DNA of 64,000 nt from Phycisphaeraceae bacterium. GTDB taxonomy: Bacteria > Planctomycetota > Phycisphaerae > Phycisphaerales > Phycisphaeraceae. Of this stretch, positions 2,361 to 59,645 are shown piece after piece (position 1 is the first letter of the stretch; each line of letters starts with the position of its first letter). Made by a program: the position numbers and the translations under genes. The stretch covers positions 1-64,000 of the forward strand of contig JANQSF010000099.1 of the NCBI GenBank assembly GCA_028284155.1, given 5' to 3'. The notes under the pieces were generated by a model, which was not told where the DNA came from, did no database searches, and was given only the letters and a program-made list of their open reading frames with translations.

Positions 2361-4751
2361 GTGCCCGACCGTTTCAACCAACGCATCCTTCACCACCTCA
2401 ACGACCGCCGGTACCGACCCAGTTCGGTGCGTGACCTGGCGGCACAGCTCGGCATTCAGTCCGACGATTACGACGACTTCGAACGGGCCGTGCACCAACT
2501 GACCGAGGCCGGGCAGGTCGTGCTCGGCTCGGCCGGCGCGGTCTCGCTGCCGCCGCCGGGCTCGTCGATGACCGGCTCGTTCCGACTCAACCCGCGTGGC
2601 TTCGGGTTTATCATGCCCGACTCACCCACCGCGCACGGCGACCTGTTCGTCCCCGCGCCGGCCACCGGCGGCGCGCTGACCGGCGACCGCGTGCGCGCCC
2701 GCGTCATCCACGACAAACGACGGGCCGGCGGCGACCGCTCGCCCTACACCGGCAAGGTCGTCGAAATCCTCCAACGGGCTGACCAGCAGTACGTCGGCAA
2801 CCTGTTCAAGCGCGGGTCGAACTGGTACGTGCAGGTCGACGGCCAGAAGTTGGCCGACCCCGTGCTCATCCGCGACCCGCACGCCAAGAACGCCAAGCCC
2901 GGCGATAAGGTCGCCATCGAGCTGACCAGCTATCCCGACGACGACCACCGCGGCGCGATCGCCGAGGGTGTGATCACCGACGTGCTCGGCGAACAGGGCG
3001 AGCCCGACGTCGAAACCATCGCCGTCATGCGCGCGTTCGGCCTGCCCGACGACTTCCCGCCGGAGGTCGTCGAAGACGCGCGCGAGGCCGCGCGTTCGTT
3101 CGACCCCGACGCGATCCCCCAAGATCGACTCGACCTGACCGACCTGTTCATCCTGACGATCGACCCGCCGGACGCCCGCGACTTCGACGACGCGATCAGT
3201 CTGGAACGACTCGACGAGGGTGCGGGCGGCGCGGCGTACGAATTGGGTGTCCATATCGCCGATGTCGCGCACTTCATCGAGCCCGGCGGCCCGCTCGACA
3301 CCGAGGCCAAGGCCCGCGGCAACAGCGTCTACCTGCCCCGCCGCGTTATCCCGATGCTGCCCGAATTGCTGAGCAACGGCGTGTGTTCGTTGCAGTCGGG
3401 CGTCAAGCGGCTGACCAAGAGCGCGTTCATCCAGTACGACAAGGCCGGCAACGTCGTCGGCGAACGGTTTGCCCGGACGGTCATTCACTCGGCCAAGCGG
3501 CTGACGTATCGCGAGGCGCAGGCGCTGATCGACGACGACATCCGCGAGGCTGTCAAACACACGCGCAGCGAACCGAGCTACCCCAAGCCGCTGATCCAGA
3601 AGCTCAAGCTGATGGACGAGCTGGCCAAGCTGATCCGCAAGCGGCGCTTCAAGCAGGGCATGATCGTGCTCGACCTGCCGGAGGTGGAGCTGATCTTCGA
3701 CGACTCCGGCCGCGTGGTCGACGCCGAGCCGGAGGACGACGCGTTCACGCACAAGATCATCGAGATGTTCATGGTCGAGGCGAATGAGGCGGCGGCCCGC
3801 CTGTTCAACACGCTCGACCTGCCGATGATCCGGCGGACACACCCCGACCCGCCGGGGCATGACCTGAGCGATCTGCGTGCGTTCGCGCGCGTCGCGGGTT
3901 TCAACATCCCCGCGCACCCAACGCGCGACGAGTTGCAACAGTTGCTTGACAAGGTCCGCGGCAAGCCCGCGCAGCACGCCGTGCACCTGGCCGTCTTGCA
4001 AACCTTGAGCAAGGCTGAGTACTCGCCCGCATTGATCGGCCATTTCGCGCTGGCCAGCGAGCACTACACGCACTTCACCAGCCCGATCCGCCGATACCCC
4101 GACCTGGTCGTGCACCGCGCGCTCGACGCCTACTGCGAGGCCTTCGACGACCACCGCAAACGACGCCTGCCCGGCGGCCGAGCGCTCAAGAAGCTTTCCA
4201 ATGATCTGGCCGCTGACGCGCGCTGCCCTGACTACGACAGTCTGTTAGACATGGGCAGGCATTGCTCGGGCACGGAACGAAACGCTGAGGCGGCTGAGCG
4301 CGAGCTGCGGACCTACCTCGTCCTGCAACTGCTCGAAGAGAATCACCTGGGCGACCACTTCGACGGCACGGTCACCGGCGTGACCGGCCAAGGCGTTTAC
4401 GTGCAGCTCGACCGGTTCCTGGTCGACGGTTTCATCCGCGCCACCGAGTTGGGCGGCGGCGAGCGGTGGCGGTACAACCGCACGACCGGCGCCCTCGTGG
4501 CCGACCGCAGCGGCAAGCAACTGACCATCGGCGACCGATTCCAGGTCTGCGTCGCCCGCGTCGATGCCGCGGCCAGACAACTCGACCTGGCGATCGTGCA
4601 GACCGGCGGCCCGCGCGTCGTGTTCAACAAGCGCAAACAACCCAAAGGCGCAGCCAAAAGCCACCGCCAGGTGCGCAACCTCAAGCAGTTAAGCGGGAAA
4701 GGCAAGCATGGGAAACCGAAGGCGGGGAAAGGACGACGTAAGCGGCGGTGA
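2361..4751 (+). CDS. rnr: Ribonuclease R (3'-5' exoribonuclease)
   Basis: 796 aa, starting at GTG 2361. The order of parts is an N-terminal winged-helix-like segment (about 1-65), OB/cold-shock-like segments beginning GSFRLNPRGFGFIMPD (about 70-230), the RNB catalytic domain with the Asp cluster DPPDARDFDDAISLE (about 265-285), a C-terminal S1 domain (FDGTVTGVTGQGVYVQL, about 670-750) and a Lys/Arg-rich tail. This is the full RNase R architecture; RNase II lacks the basic tail and is shorter. It degrades structured RNA processively to small oligonucleotides in the cytoplasm. The -10-like TATTAG lies only 10 nt upstream, so the message may be nearly leaderless. Confidence 0.96.
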   Translation: MPDRFNQRILHHLNDRRYRPSSVRDLAAQLGIQSDDYDDFERAVHQLTEAGQVVLGSAGAVSLPPPGSSMTGSFRLNPRGFGFIMPDSPTAHGDLFVPAPATGGALTGDRVRARVIHDKRRAGGDRSPYTGKVVEILQRADQQYVGNLFKRGSNWYVQVDGQKLADPVLIRDPHAKNAKPGDKVAIELTSYPDDDHRGAIAEGVITDVLGEQGEPDVETIAVMRAFGLPDDFPPEVVEDAREAARSFDPDAIPQDRLDLTDLFILTIDPPDARDFDDAISLERLDEGAGGAAYELGVHIADVAHFIEPGGPLDTEAKARGNSVYLPRRVIPMLPELLSNGVCSLQSGVKRLTKSAFIQYDKAGNVVGERFARTVIHSAKRLTYREAQALIDDDIREAVKHTRSEPSYPKPLIQKLKLMDELAKLIRKRRFKQGMIVLDLPEVELIFDDSGRVVDAEPEDDAFTHKIIEMFMVEANEAAARLFNTLDLPMIRRTHPDPPGHDLSDLRAFARVAGFNIPAHPTRDELQQLLDKVRGKPAQHAVHLAVLQTLSKAEYSPALIGHFALASEHYTHFTSPIRRYPDLVVHRALDAYCEAFDDHRKRRLPGGRALKKLSNDLAADARCPDYDSLLDMGRHCSGTERNAEAAERELRTYLVLQLLEENHLGDHFDGTVTGVTGQGVYVQLDRFLVDGFIRATELGGGERWRYNRTTGALVADRSGKQLTIGDRFQVCVARVDAAARQLDLAIVQTGGPRVVFNKRKQPKGAAKSHRQVRNLKQLSGKGKHGKPKAGKGRRKRR

Positions 4752-6500: not shown

Positions 6501-6503
6501 ACC

Positions 6504-6575
6504 GTAGGCCGGGCACGTTGCCCGGCAATTCCTCCTCATTCGTCAGCCCATTGCCGGGCAACGTGCCCAGCCTAC
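6504..6575. repeat. REPIN-like inverted hairpin pair, family D (GTAG foot)
   Basis: GTAGG followed by CCGGGCA-CGT-TGCCCGG and CAAT on the left; the right half is its reverse complement with one stem change that keeps pairing (C to T, giving a G-U pair). GTAG directly 5' of a hairpin is the classical RAYT recognition layout. The right foot overlaps and supplies the TAG stop codon of the minus-strand beta-propeller gene. Confidence 0.85.
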
Positions 6576-7690
6576 GCAAATCGCACCGTATAGATCGGCG
6601 GCAGGTGGCTCGTCACACACCGCCATTGGTCGCCGGCGTTTTCGCTGACCCAGAGCGACCCGGTCGTGCTGCCGGTCGTGAGTCGTTCGCCGGTCGTGTC
6701 CACGTCGAGGCCGTGGCGGAAGACCAGGTCGTACGCGTGCTCGCCGGGCAGGCCGTCCGTGAGCGTGTCGAACGACTTGCCGCCGTCGCGCGTGCGCGTC
6801 ACGACGAATCGGCCGGCCACGGGCACACGGTGTTCGTCCTTGATGGCCGGGACGAACCAGGCGGTCTGGTCGTCGTGCGGGTGGGCGGCGACGGCGAAGC
6901 CGAAGCGTGACGGCGGGTCGTCGCTTTCGTTTTCCGTCCAGTTCGCGCCGCCGTCGGCCGTGCGGAAGATGCCGTTGTGGTGTTGCGCCCACATGACAGC
7001 GGGGTTGGCACGACACGCGGCGAGGCGGTGGACGTCCTGCGTCTGCGGGTCGTACGCGGTTTCGGGCGGGGCGTAGTCGGCGCGGATGCCCGTGCCCTCA
7101 CACTTCCACGACGCGCCGTCGTCCTCACTGATCCACACGCCGCCACACGACACGGCCGTGACGACGCGCTTGCTGTTACGCGGGTCGACAAACACCGAGT
7201 GCAGGCCGGGGAAGTCGAACCCGCCGCCCATCCACTTGGCCCGCGCGGGGTCGTCCCACAACGAGCGGACCAGTTCCCACGAGTCGCCGGCGTCGTCGCT
7301 TTTGAACAGGCCGCCGGGGATCGTGCCGCACCAGAGTCGGCCGGGCTGGTCGCCGCCGCCGACGGTCAATTCCCAGATGAGCTTGGTCGTCCACGGGATG
7401 GGGATCTGCCTCATCGGGCAGAGGTCGTCGGGACGGTCGGCCGGCTTCTCCGGGTAGGTCGGCGTGCCGACTTCGTCCCAGGTCGCGCCGCCGTCGCGCG
7501 AGCGGTGCATCTTGTCGCCAAAGTGCTCGTGATGGACCCCCGCGTAGAGCGCGCCGTCGCGCGGGTCGTGCACCGCCATGGGCACGTGGTCGCCGACGAA
7601 GTGCGCACTGTCGACCTTCCAATCGCCCGACGATTGGCGTGTGACGATGAACAAGCCTTTCCGTGTCGCGGCGAGGATGCGGTCGCTCAT
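6572..7690 (-). CDS. BNR/Asp-box sialidase-like beta-propeller protein
   Basis: 372 aa from ATG 7690. The protein has repeated Asp-box motifs (SRDGGATWDEVG, SDDAGDSWELV, SEDDGASWKCEG, TADGGANWTEN, TRDGGKSFDTL, SENAGDQWRCV), about one every 45-60 residues, giving a six-bladed WD40/YVTN/BNR-like propeller. There is no signal peptide, so it is probably cytoplasmic. Sialidase catalytic residues are not evident and no substrate can be assigned. The MoaD/ThiS-like gene lies upstream on the same strand, separated by a family F hairpin repeat that also makes a spurious N-terminal extension. The stop codon lies inside a REP foot. Confidence 0.85.
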   Translation of the reverse strand: MSDRILAATRKGLFIVTRQSSGDWKVDSAHFVGDHVPMAVHDPRDGALYAGVHHEHFGDKMHRSRDGGATWDEVGTPTYPEKPADRPDDLCPMRQIPIPWTTKLIWELTVGGGDQPGRLWCGTIPGGLFKSDDAGDSWELVRSLWDDPARAKWMGGGFDFPGLHSVFVDPRNSKRVVTAVSCGGVWISEDDGASWKCEGTGIRADYAPPETAYDPQTQDVHRLAACRANPAVMWAQHHNGIFRTADGGANWTENESDDPPSRFGFAVAAHPHDDQTAWFVPAIKDEHRVPVAGRFVVTRTRDGGKSFDTLTDGLPGEHAYDLVFRHGLDVDTTGERLTTGSTTGSLWVSENAGDQWRCVTSHLPPIYTVRFA

Positions 7691-7721: not shown

Positions 7722-7793
7722 TGTGTCACGGCCGTGTCGGCCGTGTGGATCACCACTGATGCGCCGCACGGCCGACACGGCCGTGGCACGAAT
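7722..7793. repeat. Inverted hairpin pair, family F (copy 1 of 6)
   Basis: CACGGCCG-TGT-CGGCCGTG (7727-7745) and its reverse complement (7767-7785) lie about 21 bp apart, followed by GGCACGAATCAG. The unit recurs at 40061, 42228, 48939, 53398 and 57941. It lies between the MoaD-like and beta-propeller genes. Confidence 0.92.
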
Positions 7794-8148: not shown

Positions 8149-8807
8149 GTTTAGCCGCGGGGCTTGCCCCGCCCTTCGTTCTCGACGACAAACGGCCAGT
8201 CCTGGCGCGGCCGTCCCTCGCGCAGCGGATTATCCTCGACATAGCGCACGGCGTTTTCGAACTGCCGTTCACTGTCAATGAAGACTTTCCACAGCCCGCG
8301 TGCCCAGACGGTCGGCACCGACCCATCTGGCTTGACGTGCGCTTCCATCGGGTGCAGTCCCTCCTTGCGTAATTGTTGAGACTCGCGGGCCTTGAGGTGC
8401 GACGCGATCTGTTCGATTGTCCGGCCGGTTCTCGCGACGACCAGGTGCGCGTGGTCGTCCATAATCGAGCAGGCGTGTACGGCGTACGGCGCTTCGTCGA
8501 TCGCGCGGGCGAACCCGCCGGCGACGGACTGAATCTGTTCACTATCCAATTCGACAGGCTGATACTTCAGCGCCTCCTTGGCGGCGGCGGCGCGCTTGAG
8601 GCGGCCGTGCGGGCGGTTGGCCAGTGACTGACGTGTGTTGACCTTGGTTGGGCCGCCGAAACGCAACAGTTCCCAACTGCGTACCCAGGTCGACCACGAC
8701 CCGCGCGGGTCGTTTGGGAGCCAGAACCCGTAGGCGGTCATGATCAGGTGGTAGGCGATGACCATGGGTGAGCGGGGCACAGGGCGGGGCAAGCCCCGCG
8801 GTTAAAC
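8149..8807 (-). mobile_element. RAYT element bounded by inverted REP hairpins
   Basis: A 659-bp unit whose ends are inverted copies of the family A hairpin: GTTTAGC with CGCGGGGC-TT-GCCCCGCC at 8149 onward, and the complement ending GTTAAAC at 8807. The only gene inside is a Y1 transposase, and its stop codon falls in the 8149 foot. The layout matches a REP/RAYT domesticated system or a minimal IS200/IS605-like unit. No target duplication is visible, as expected for HUH elements. It sits directly after oppB, where oppC would normally be found. Confidence 0.85.
8151..8765 (-). CDS. REP-associated tyrosine transposase (RAYT, Y1_Tnp)
   Basis: 204 aa from ATG 8765; a TTG at 8792 within the hairpin gives a longer form but is less likely. 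The N-terminus AYHLIMTAYGFWLPND is typical of RAYTs. The HUH metal motif is DDHAHLVV (His105, His107), and the catalytic tyrosine is Tyr175 in RYVEDNPLREG. Such enzymes cleave single-stranded REP hairpins through a 5'-phosphotyrosine link. The last residues (GRGKPRG) and the TAA stop are encoded by the REP hairpin itself. All catalytic residues are intact, so it may be active. It is the only transposase in the window and the natural candidate for spreading the hairpins. Confidence 0.93.
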   Translation of the reverse strand: MVIAYHLIMTAYGFWLPNDPRGSWSTWVRSWELLRFGGPTKVNTRQSLANRPHGRLKRAAAAKEALKYQPVELDSEQIQSVAGGFARAIDEAPYAVHACSIMDDHAHLVVARTGRTIEQIASHLKARESQQLRKEGLHPMEAHVKPDGSVPTVWARGLWKVFIDSERQFENAVRYVEDNPLREGRPRQDWPFVVENEGRGKPRG

Positions 8808-14548: not shown

Positions 14549-14625
14549 TCAAAACGCTCACTCCCCTTCAGCCCCAGATTACGCCCTCGTTGTTACACAC
14601 AAGTCAGACCGCATGGTGTAAAGAG

Positions 14626-14972
14626 GCGGTGCCCTGCCGGGCGGGCCTCTTCAATCGCCAGAGTGGCTCAGACCTTGCGCCCGATAGCAACCGTGCGTCG
14701 CCCGCGATAATCCGCCTTGCGCCGCACACATTTAAGACGCGGGCGATTGGGGCCTTCCACGGCCAGCCCCAAACCCCCGGCCGCCCCCGAAAGGTGTGGT
14801 CGTGGATGGGCGCTCGGCCGATGGCCCGACTTCCGCGGGGGAGCCTCGGGGGTTTGGGTGAGCGGCGGCGAGCGTCCCCTAACTCTTGTGGTCTTTACGG
14901 CGAAGCCGTTCCGTCAAAGCGCAGCGCCAAGCGGCTGCGGCGCTTGAGCAGGCCCGTCCGGCAGGACACCGC
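14626..14972 (+). ncRNA. Candidate large structured RNA (347 nt), family unknown
   Basis: A 720-bp space without a credible gene contains a 23-bp long-range helix: 14626-14648 pairs with 14950-14972, with one C.A mismatch and one G-U pair. Inside are further helices: 14699-14706 with 14738-14745 (8 bp), 14768-14779 with 14847-14858 (12 bp perfect), 14784-14789 with 14836-14841, and a hairpin 14897-14909 with a GAA loop. A CCGAAAGG tetraloop-like element supports the plus strand. A weak TTACAC-N17-TGTAAA promoter (14594-14622) would start transcription near 14629. I found no conserved core of RNase P RNA, tmRNA, SRP RNA or 6S RNA. No intrinsic terminator is evident. Confidence 0.5.
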
Positions 14973-15080
14973 ATCTCCGAATCCAATGACTCGACTTGTG
15001 TAGAGCAATAGGGGCATCGGCCAACAACCAAACGACTCTCGGATCAACCTGCCATTGGCAGTGTGATACATCCAACGCGG

Positions 15081-15107
15081 GTCCCCGGCCAAAGGCCGGG
15101 GCTGAAG
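15081..15107. repeat. Single REP hairpin, family E
   Basis: GT followed by CCCCGGCC-AAA-GGCCGGGG and CTGAAG; read on the minus strand this is the TTCAG-foot hairpin also found in pairs at 31601-31751 and 54471-54577. It lies between the candidate RNA and trxA. Confidence 0.85.
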
Positions 15108-15196
15108 TGGGGACGTCGCAATTCAGACGCCTTCCTGTCACGTCCGCAACCTATCGGCATCCAAGTGTGTGAGCGAACCCCGACCGGCCGGCTGGG

Positions 15197-16861: not shown

Positions 16862-16886
16862 AGCACATGAAGTCCGTCTGTATCGG

Positions 16887-16975
16887 GTGCCACACTTTGG
16901 CATTGCAAAGTGTGTCGACAACCGAACACGGCAGGACGACTGAGTCACACTTTGCCGAGCCAAAGTGTGGCCCCC
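16887..16975. repeat. Inverted hairpin pair, family H (copy 2 of 3)
   Basis: It has GTGCCA, the CACACTTTG/CAAAGTGTG hairpin, about 30 bp, then the inverted partner ending CCAAAGTGTGGCC. It begins 25 bp after the M16 stop. Confidence 0.85.
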
Positions 16976-31591: not shown

Positions 31592-31600
31592 GCGTGTCCC

Positions 31601-31751
31601 TTCAGCCCCGGCCTCCGGCCGGGGACCGGATACGGACGGCGTGCGCCGTGCAATCTTGACGACCGACTAACACCGAACGCCGCCCGGCACGTGCCCGCCG
31701 TGATGTTGCCGAACGCTGCACGTTTGTCCCCGGCCAGAGGCCGGGGCTGAA
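31601..31751. repeat. REPIN-like inverted pair, family E
   Basis: TTCAG with CCCCGGCC-TCC-GGCCGGGG and AC at 31601; the inverted partner at 31726-31751 has the loop changed (complement of CTC). It lies between the VIT-vWA gene and the next secreted protein gene. Confidence 0.85.
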
Positions 31752-31789
31752 GGGGGGGGTCGGACGGGGTCGCGTTACAGGAGTCCGCG

Positions 31790-36935: not shown

Positions 36936-36989
36936 CAGTCCGTCCCAATCGAATCGATCCAACCGTTTGCATTTCGACCGCCCTGTTTG

Positions 36990-37062
36990 GGTGCCACACT
37001 TTGGCTTTGCAAAGTGTGTCGGTCGCCGTCAGCACACTTTGCAAAGCCAAAGTGTGGCACCC
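36990..37062. repeat. Inverted hairpin pair, family H (copy 3 of 3, perfect)
   Basis: GGGTGCCA with the CACACTTTG/CAAAGTGTG hairpin; the partner, 12 bp beyond, is an exact reverse complement over about 30 bp. It lies inside the exporter operon, between the ATPase and first permease genes. Confidence 0.92.
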
Positions 37063-40060: not shown

Positions 40061-40133
40061 TCGTTCCACGGCCGTGTCGGCCGTGAGGTACATCACAGGC
40101 CAATCGCACGGCCGACACGGCCGTGGCACGAGA
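40061..40133. repeat. Inverted hairpin pair, family F (copy 2 of 6)
   Basis: The CACGGCCG-TGT-CGGCCGTG hairpin and its inverted partner, followed by GGCACGAGACAGGCGC. It lies in a 357-bp space between two divergently oriented secreted/lipid genes; the rest of that space holds no gene. Confidence 0.92.
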
Positions 40134-42180: not shown

Positions 42181-42227
42181 GCACAATCGACCGGGTCAGA
42201 CAGTGGTGCACTTTGGCACGTCGAATT

Positions 42228-42298
42228 CGTGCCACGGCCGTGTCGGCCGTGTGGAACACCCTTGAGTAACCGCACGGCCGACACGGCCGCGGCACGAG
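42228..42298. repeat. Inverted hairpin pair, family F (copy 3 of 6)
   Basis: Hairpin arms at 42233-42251 and the complement at 42273-42291, spacer GTGGAACACCCTTGAGTAAC, then GGCACGAGACAGGCGCTCAG. The spacer and 3' flank are closely shared with copy 4. Confidence 0.93.
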
Positions 42299-48790: not shown

Positions 48791-48938
48791 GGCGGGGTCA
48801 ACTCCGCGCAGGTCGTGCGTTGGACACGGACCTGACAGGTATCAAGGCTATCCAAGTGTATGCGTATGGAGACGGACCATGACCGACATGCAACGCCATG
48901 CAACGCCAGGTGGAGGCCCACTTTGGGTTGTACGGTTG

Positions 48939-49010
48939 TCGTGCCACGGCCGTGTCGGCCGTGTGAGGCACCCTTGAGACACCGCACGGCCGACACGGCC
49001 GTGGCACGAG
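48939..49010. repeat. Inverted hairpin pair, family F (copy 4 of 6)
   Basis: Hairpin 48945-48963 and its complement 48985-49003, spacer TGAGGCACCCTTGAGACAC. Spacer and 3' flank resemble copy 3. It lies in the 329-bp phoB-phoR gap, which has no gene. Confidence 0.93.
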
Positions 49011-49119
49011 AAGGCCGCTCAGATCAAAGTATCTCACGACCCAACGCCAAAGCACACCGCCTCCGCCCCGTCCGTCTCAATGACGTCTTCAACAATCAGG
49101 TCGACGAACTCATCCGTAA

Positions 49120-52468: not shown

Positions 52469-52470
52469 CC

Positions 52471-52547
52471 GTTTAGCCGCGGAGCTTGCTCCGCGCGTTC
52501 GGCGTCAAGTTAGTCCGCGACGCGCGGAGCAAGCTCCGCGGCTAAAC
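52471..52547. repeat. REPIN-like inverted pair, family B
   Basis: GTTTAGC with CGCGGAGC-TT-GCTCCGCG and the full reverse complement ending GCTAAAC, about 35 bp apart. The stem differs from family A at two paired positions. Confidence 0.93.
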
Positions 52548-52548
52548 G

Positions 52549-53379: not shown

Positions 53380-53397
53380 GACATTGACCGAACTGTC

Positions 53398-53468
53398 TCG
53401 TGCCTCGGCCGTGTCGGCCGTGCGGAGCGCCAATGTCCGATGGCACGGCCGACACGGCCGTGGCACGA
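53398..53468. repeat. Inverted hairpin pair, family F (copy 5 of 6)
   Basis: Left arm CTCGGCCGTGTCGGCCGTG with one changed base, right arm CACGGCCGACACGGCCGTG. It lies between the divergent sulfotransferase and methyltransferase genes. Confidence 0.9.
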
Positions 53469-53522
53469 AACATGGACACGCATCGTGATAAGCGTCGAGT
53501 ATAGACGCCCTTGCGCCGCCCG

Positions 53523-56536: not shown

Positions 56537-56610
56537 GTAGGGTGCGCTTCAGCGCACCACCAGAATCGGACATCTTCCTTGCGGACGTGGTGCGCTGAAG
56601 CGCACCCTAC
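56537..56610. repeat. REPIN-like inverted pair, family G (GTAG foot)
   Basis: GTAG followed by GGTGCGCT-TC-AGCGCACC; the exact complement ends CCTAC at 56610. Spacer about 35 bp. The GTAG tetranucleotide matches known RAYT target sites. Confidence 0.92.
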
Positions 56611-57869: not shown

Positions 57870-58105
57870 ATGGGTGAGTGGGTGAGAGGGTGTGTCGAAC
57901 CATGCGAACGCCGGGTAGTGGTTCACTGTGATGTCAAGATTCGTGCCACGGCCGTGTCGGCCGTGCGGTCCATCGAATGTGTTTCACACGGCCGACACGG
58001 CCGTGGCACGAGACAAGCGCTCGTCCCAAGGTGAACCACGACCGAATGCCGCGCCGCAACGATCCAATTCACCAACACCCACTCACCCCGTCACCACCTC
58101 ATCCG
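57855..58105. repeat. Short-period inverted pair (GGGTGA type) enclosing a family F copy
   Basis: The left block of GGGTGAC/GGGTGAG units (57855-57893) and the right block CACCCACTCACCCCGTCACC (58076-58098) are inverted, with the family F element between them. Confidence 0.75.
57941..58012. repeat. Inverted hairpin pair, family F (copy 6 of 6)
   Basis: TCGTGC then CACGGCCG-TGT-CGGCCGTG, about 22 bp, the complement, then GGCACGAGACAAGCGCTCG. It lies inside the GGGTGA-type inverted pair. Confidence 0.93.
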
Positions 58106-59508: not shown

Positions 59509-59627
59509 GTTTAGCCGCGCCGCTGGGATCGCGCATTTAGCCGCGTCGCTTGCGACGCGCTGCGTCGTGAATGGATTTTGACACGCATGACCCACGCCCG
59601 ATCGTGTCGCAAGCGACGCGGCTAAAT
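59509..59627. repeat. Hairpin cluster, family C
   Basis: GTTTAGCCGCGCCGCTGGG (partial), then TTTAGC with CGCGTCGC-TT-GCGACGCG, about 45 bp, and the complement ending GCTAAAT. CTTG centre and GTTTAGC-type foot as in families A and B, with a different stem. Confidence 0.88.
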
Positions 59628-59645
59628 GGCGCGCTACCATTGGGC

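Follow-up and report, generated by a model that had tools for sequence, protein, structure and literature searches.

REPIN and BIME elements are inverted pairs of REP palindromes mobilised by RAYT (TnpA-REP) proteins, which are Y1 HUH enzymes. A single REP spans 20–40 bp and bears the tag GTAG or CGTC (PMC3733652). In Planctomycetes, Y1 enzymes whose flanking structures are atypical have been described (PMC6006769). Intergenic stretches that are highly structured are frequently put forward as new RNAs, and the compensatory changes found in them can belong to a dispersed DNA element. The two are told apart by asking how many copies exist, whether both strands behave alike, whether pairing is local or long-range, and whether orthologous loci lack the sequence.

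We examined such a stretch in 64,000 nucleotides of a Phycisphaeraceae genome (the window). A gap of 721 bp without predicted genes separates a sigma-54 (NtrC-type) regulator with response-regulator, AAA+ and Fis domains from a thioredoxin gene (trxA), in agreement with the gene-free space of about 720 bp described in the first-pass annotation. That annotation had placed a candidate undescribed structured RNA of 347 nt in the gap. The strong fold that it reported was reproduced on the plus strand, with a z score of −4.5 against dinucleotide shuffles and none of 100 shuffles folding as well. The Rfam search that it had proposed gave no match at the gathering score. Permissive thresholds (E up to 10) returned nothing relevant, and in particular no large bacterial RNA family such as HEARO. 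The element resembles HEARO and other large bacterial RNAs of Rfam in being about 350 nt long, GC-rich and multi-helical, but has no Rfam match.

The sequence proved to be one copy of a dispersed repeat. An own-genome blastn search with positions 14560–15040 as query returned 75 matches in the 7.2-Mb genome, the best other copy having 85% identity (E = 1e-111); the copy numbers given here come from sequence searches of this genome in 161 contigs. About 40 places were fetched with their flanks and aligned, and the alignment of 28 copies delimited a unit of 353 bp at 14623–14975 on the plus strand. The structure annotated at 14626–14972 is thus present, with its true ends at about 14623 and 14975. 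Near-complete copies number about 27 in the genome, and 39 left and 37 right halves were matched by the respective covariance models (our count of full-scoring matches). The conserved part starts with GAGGCGGTGC (14623) and stops with GCACCGCCTC, which reads CACCGCATC in the trxA copy (14975). These ends are sharp, the flanks outside being unrelated between copies. No extension of the helix into the flanks was detected, as own flanks paired no better than swapped flanks, except for the trxA copy and locus L012, which have some outer sequence in common. Pairwise identity between copies averaged 76% and never exceeded 86%, a pattern that would fit either amplification long ago or several master copies that were themselves evolving.

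The ends of the element are imperfect inverted repeats of about 55 bp, each held by one of two halves that also occur alone; the extra places fetched were such solo halves. The left half (module M5, about 126 nt, 14623–14748, plus strand; left-half model R1 matching at 14622–14751) carries the terminal hairpin GCCC-TGCC-GGGC (14631–14642), followed by the conserved spacer GGGCCTCTTCAATCGCC (14643–14659) and a second small hairpin, GCC-AGAGT-GGC (14657–14667). The spacer has 34 genome matches at up to 3 mismatches, and a further search found 33 places; the control gave 0 in both cases. The right half (module M3, about 146 nt, 14830–14975, plus strand; right-half model R2 matching at 14828–14977) carries the spacer GGCGCTTGAGCAGGCCC (14939–14955) and the terminal hairpin GTCC-GGCA-GGAC (14956–14967); on the minus strand, its end matches that of the left half. 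In the trxA copy, the right-half model matched the left half end to end on the opposite strand with 61.7 bits, most of the score coming from the shared end. By these matches, the element seems to consist of two units that face each other and have diverged.

A central stem (14768–14858, plus strand) surrounds a variable loop. Its arms, recovered by a repeat search at 14768–14779 and 14847–14858, form the perfect 12-bp helix that had been reported. The loop contains up to about 170 nt of extra hairpins in other copies. A palindromic insert of about 10 nt (CCCCCGGGGG or ACCCCCGGAT/ATCCGGGGGT) was seen at several places within eleven copies (L016, L018, L019, L022, L027, L031, L034, L035, L039, L041 and L044); both arms of a stem carry it in L019 and L035, making that stem longer by about 10 pairs.

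Conservation of the fold was assessed in alignments of 32 left and 34 right halves. Cells changed on both sides of a pair numbered 15 in the left half versus 3.9 in shuffled alignments, and 58 versus 19.6 in the right half. None of 500 shuffles reached either value, in a test inflated by kinship among the copies, and both values were far above slid controls. That pair types are so varied, with G-C, C-G and U-A all seen at a single pair for example, speaks for genuine conservation. Within the family, covariation is best in the hairpin GGGTGAGC..GCGTCCCCT (14856–14880, plus strand), where four pairs have double changes (G-C/A-U in 12 cells, A-U/G-C in 16, G-C/C-G/U-A in 15 and C-G/U-A in 5). The left-half stem TCGCCCGCG / CGCGGGCGA (14698–14746, plus strand) has a C-G to G-C double change at one pair in 6 copies, and two of its inner pairs are broken in 11 copies. 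The second small hairpin is paired in 99% of cells, with nearly invariant pairs that carry no covariation evidence of their own. The hairpin ACGGC-GAA-GCCGT (14897–14909, plus strand) is paired in 93% of cells, without double changes; its loop varies among GAA, GCA, GTA and GGA in other copies, so that the GAA loop noted earlier is not a conserved feature.

Both terminal hairpins vary in a compensatory manner, the types GCCC/GGGC, GCAC/GTGC and GTCC/GGAC being found at either end. When their eight base pairs were paired locally, 195 of 200 cells were Watson-Crick (25 copies), whereas pairing the same bases from the left end to the right end gave 149 of 200 Watson-Crick, 10 G-T and 41 mismatched. 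Judged by this comparison, the conserved pairing is that of small local hairpins and not that of a long-range helix. The first-pass annotation had closed its RNA with a 23-bp long-range helix. Pairing does exist there in the trxA copy, with one C·A mismatch and one G·U, and since the hairpin reads GCCC-TGCC-GGGC at the left end and GTCC-GGCA-GGAC at the right, these two flaws are exactly one compensatory pair within the right terminal hairpin. The covariation it had called for was found in the local hairpins. Hairpins kept in copies this old could alternatively mean selection in place.

Nearly all copies are extragenic: with genes called by a simple dicodon finder (coding density 79%), 40 of 42 examined lie between genes, and the other two overlap open reading frames near their start side, possibly through the start-site call. 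The 27 complete, non-overlapping copies occupied 8 convergent, 6 divergent and 13 tandem contexts, which did not differ clearly from the background of intergenic gaps (p = 0.07). At the orthologous locus, adjacency of trxA and an M16 peptidase gene is kept in 23 of 29 relatives, and the element was absent from the trxA locus in all 29. The left-half model detected weaker relatives in the Phycisphaeraceae MAG PL25a_bin.150 (G018), one weaker relative in a second genome (G024) and a marginal match in a third (G033). It found nothing in the other genomes of Phycisphaeraceae and about 390 Planctomycetota, the large scan having scored the best few candidates per genome. As scored by this model, the distribution is patchy, with weaker relatives in two Phycisphaeraceae genomes and none in nearly all Planctomycetota searched. 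Phage, plasmid and viral collections gave no match to the element. We found no description of this family in literature on repeats of Planctomycetes, Phycisphaera or Streptomyces, which does not prove novelty; the family is apparently undescribed in the sources at hand. Of the annotated "undescribed structured RNA", then, the undescribed structured element stands, with a conserved fold and no Rfam family, and the structured RNA belonging to the NtrC–trxA space falls.

The window contains other repeats. A Y1 (IS200-like/RAYT) transposase gene (8150–8765, minus strand) is flanked at 8149–8175 and 8781–8807 by an inverted pair of the palindrome GTTTAGCCGCGGGGCTTGCCCCGCCC, an arrangement like that of a REPtron. 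The GTTTAGCCGCG motif occurs 13 times in the 64-kb window versus 1.7 expected. A second family of inverted pairs, CGTGCCACGGCCGTGTCGGCCGTG ... CACGGCCGACACGGCCGTGGCACGA, has six copies in the 64 kb (7723–7789, 40061–40131, 42227–42297, 48936–49012, 53394–53472 and 57941–58011), and further palindromic repeats in inverted pairs (CACACTTTGGCTTTGCAAAGTGTG, GTGCGCTTCAGCGCAC, CCCTTCAGCCCCGGCC and others) lie at 36989–37062, 16885–16975, 6503–6576, 56537–56610, 31598–31754, 52470–52548 and 59534–59628. This genome seems to hold unusually many REPIN-like families. On either side of the element itself, at 14563–14575 and 15098–15110, and likewise at L012 around 2570–3080, lie half-palindromes of the CCCCTTCAGCCCC family; those around the element are 522 nt apart, as against about 99 nt at 31598–31754. 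At the trxA locus and L012 the element possibly sits inside another repeat pair of this family.

The element shares with REPINs and BIMEs its many extragenic copies, its composition of two inverted units, each with its own hairpin (here with compensatory changes), and the existence of single units, in a host genome that holds other such pairs and Y1_Tnp genes. It differs from them in its units of about 125–150 bp, as compared with 20–40 bp for a REP (PMC3733652), in the lack of an invariant GTAG or CGTC tag at the ends of 26 copies on inspection, and in having no cognate RAYT/TnpA-REP gene flanked by its repeat. With MITEs it has in common that it is short, protein-free and dispersed, with inverted terminal repeats. 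It departs from them in showing no target-site duplication, which may have decayed, and in ends that contain self-complementary hairpins; no parent insertion sequence was found among the places matched in the 161-contig assembly. Since it lacks three defining features of REPs (unit length, tag and cognate transposase) and one of MITEs (target duplication), we have filed it under neither.

We consider it likely that the trxA-side sequence is one copy of a non-autonomous REPIN/MITE-like element that codes for no protein, is dispersed in extragenic copies, has the unusual length of about 350 bp and is mobilised in trans. Many copies with sharp ends and inverted repeats, extragenic sites and solo halves were observed, as were compensatory changes in local hairpins, a patchy distribution and absence at the orthologous trxA locus. 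A transposase-like enzyme supplied in trans would recognise the end hairpins and so multiply the element. The hairpins would probably be read as single-stranded DNA, as HUH/Y1 enzymes do, or alternatively as a cruciform or as double-stranded ends. The present copies would be old, and any effects on neighbouring transcripts secondary. Among 26 copies, no k-mer duplication at any offset was clearly beyond chance, a result easier to reconcile with single-strand transposition of the HUH/Y1 type than with most DDE elements, decay being possible. No copy carrying an open reading frame was noticed among the places found in the 161-contig assembly that could be an autonomous partner with these ends. 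Because no pair of copies exceeds 86% identity, no recent jump is apparent and it is from distribution alone that mobility is argued. The genome has three Y1_Tnp genes, including the one at 8150–8765 in the window, and none is near the element. Two of them, full-length, adjoin the different palindrome GTTTAGCCGCG; a RAYT was considered as mobiliser and rejected, as the Y1 genes have other palindromes beside them.

A sub-case of the same explanation with another enzyme, in which the element is a classical MITE belonging to a DDE insertion sequence, its target duplications having decayed, is possible though rather doubtful. The inverted repeats, the length of about 350 bp and, on inspection, the absence of an open reading frame conserved between copies would suit it; the 26 copies, however, bear no trace of target duplications, and it is local hairpins that are kept rather than mutual complementarity of the ends, which hairpin recognition explains better than plain double-stranded terminal repeats.

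The end motif has a counterpart in another phylum. A REP-like repeat of Streptomyces (GCCCTGCCGGGCGGGCCTCCTCAANCGCCGGAGGGGCTC) has the same hairpin, spacer and second hairpin over about 38 nt, at 85–92% identity, and often occurs in inverted pairs; it does not, however, share the inner ~250 bp of the element. It is very common, with 411 and 439 matches in two genomes. Its core matched the end motif at eleven Streptomyces loci (L092–L095, L097, L099, L101, L102 and L104–L106). Homology of the two end motifs is a lead only, the search having been seeded with part of the motif. We regard it as unlikely, but worth stating, that the element represents a new class of mobile element. Its ends (hairpin GCCC-TGCC-GGGC, spacer GGGCCTCCTCAANCGCC and second hairpin) would be read by a type of enzyme common to Streptomyces, where the REP-like copies run into hundreds, and Planctomycetota, which have the 350-bp structured form; known RAYT enzymes would not be the movers.

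That the copies are instead a family of structured non-coding RNAs, or RNA 3′-end elements such as bidirectional terminators or mRNA stabilisers acting at many loci, appears quite improbable. Strong fold energy, compensatory changes in hairpins and the closeness of copies to gene ends are what such RNAs would show. Against this, the strands fold equally well: the minus strand of the trxA copy had a z score of −3.0, other shuffles gave −5.2 and −4.5 for the two strands, and fold energies were equally extreme on both strands in ten copies, so that the plus-strand assignment made earlier is not upheld. In RNA helices, G-T should outnumber A-C, and does not: 11 versus 12 cells, or 11 versus 6, still not significant, without six A-C cells that all come from a single pair judged misaligned. 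From this test, small in numbers, nothing appears to mark the element as RNA, and the indication is weak. Copies show no orientation preference towards neighbouring genes, and halves exist solo. At the trxA copy, no sigma-70-like promoter was found where a weak, correctly placed one had been annotated, and the plus strand showed no T-tract terminator.

A single-locus structured RNA, or leader of trxA or of the NtrC-type regulator, as first annotated from the position in the gap, is very improbable, since about 40 copies are dispersed elsewhere in mixed contexts and orientations, which refutes a function exclusive to trxA or NtrC, and the homologues sought upstream of trxA are missing in 29 of 29 relatives, leaving a trxA/NtrC-linked function unsupported.

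The structure beside trxA is real and its reading changes, from a dedicated RNA gene to a copy of a dispersed, hairpin-ended and probably mobile DNA repeat. Members of the family exceed ordinary REPINs in size and have an end motif like one that abounds in Streptomyces, which raises the question of the enzyme that moves them.
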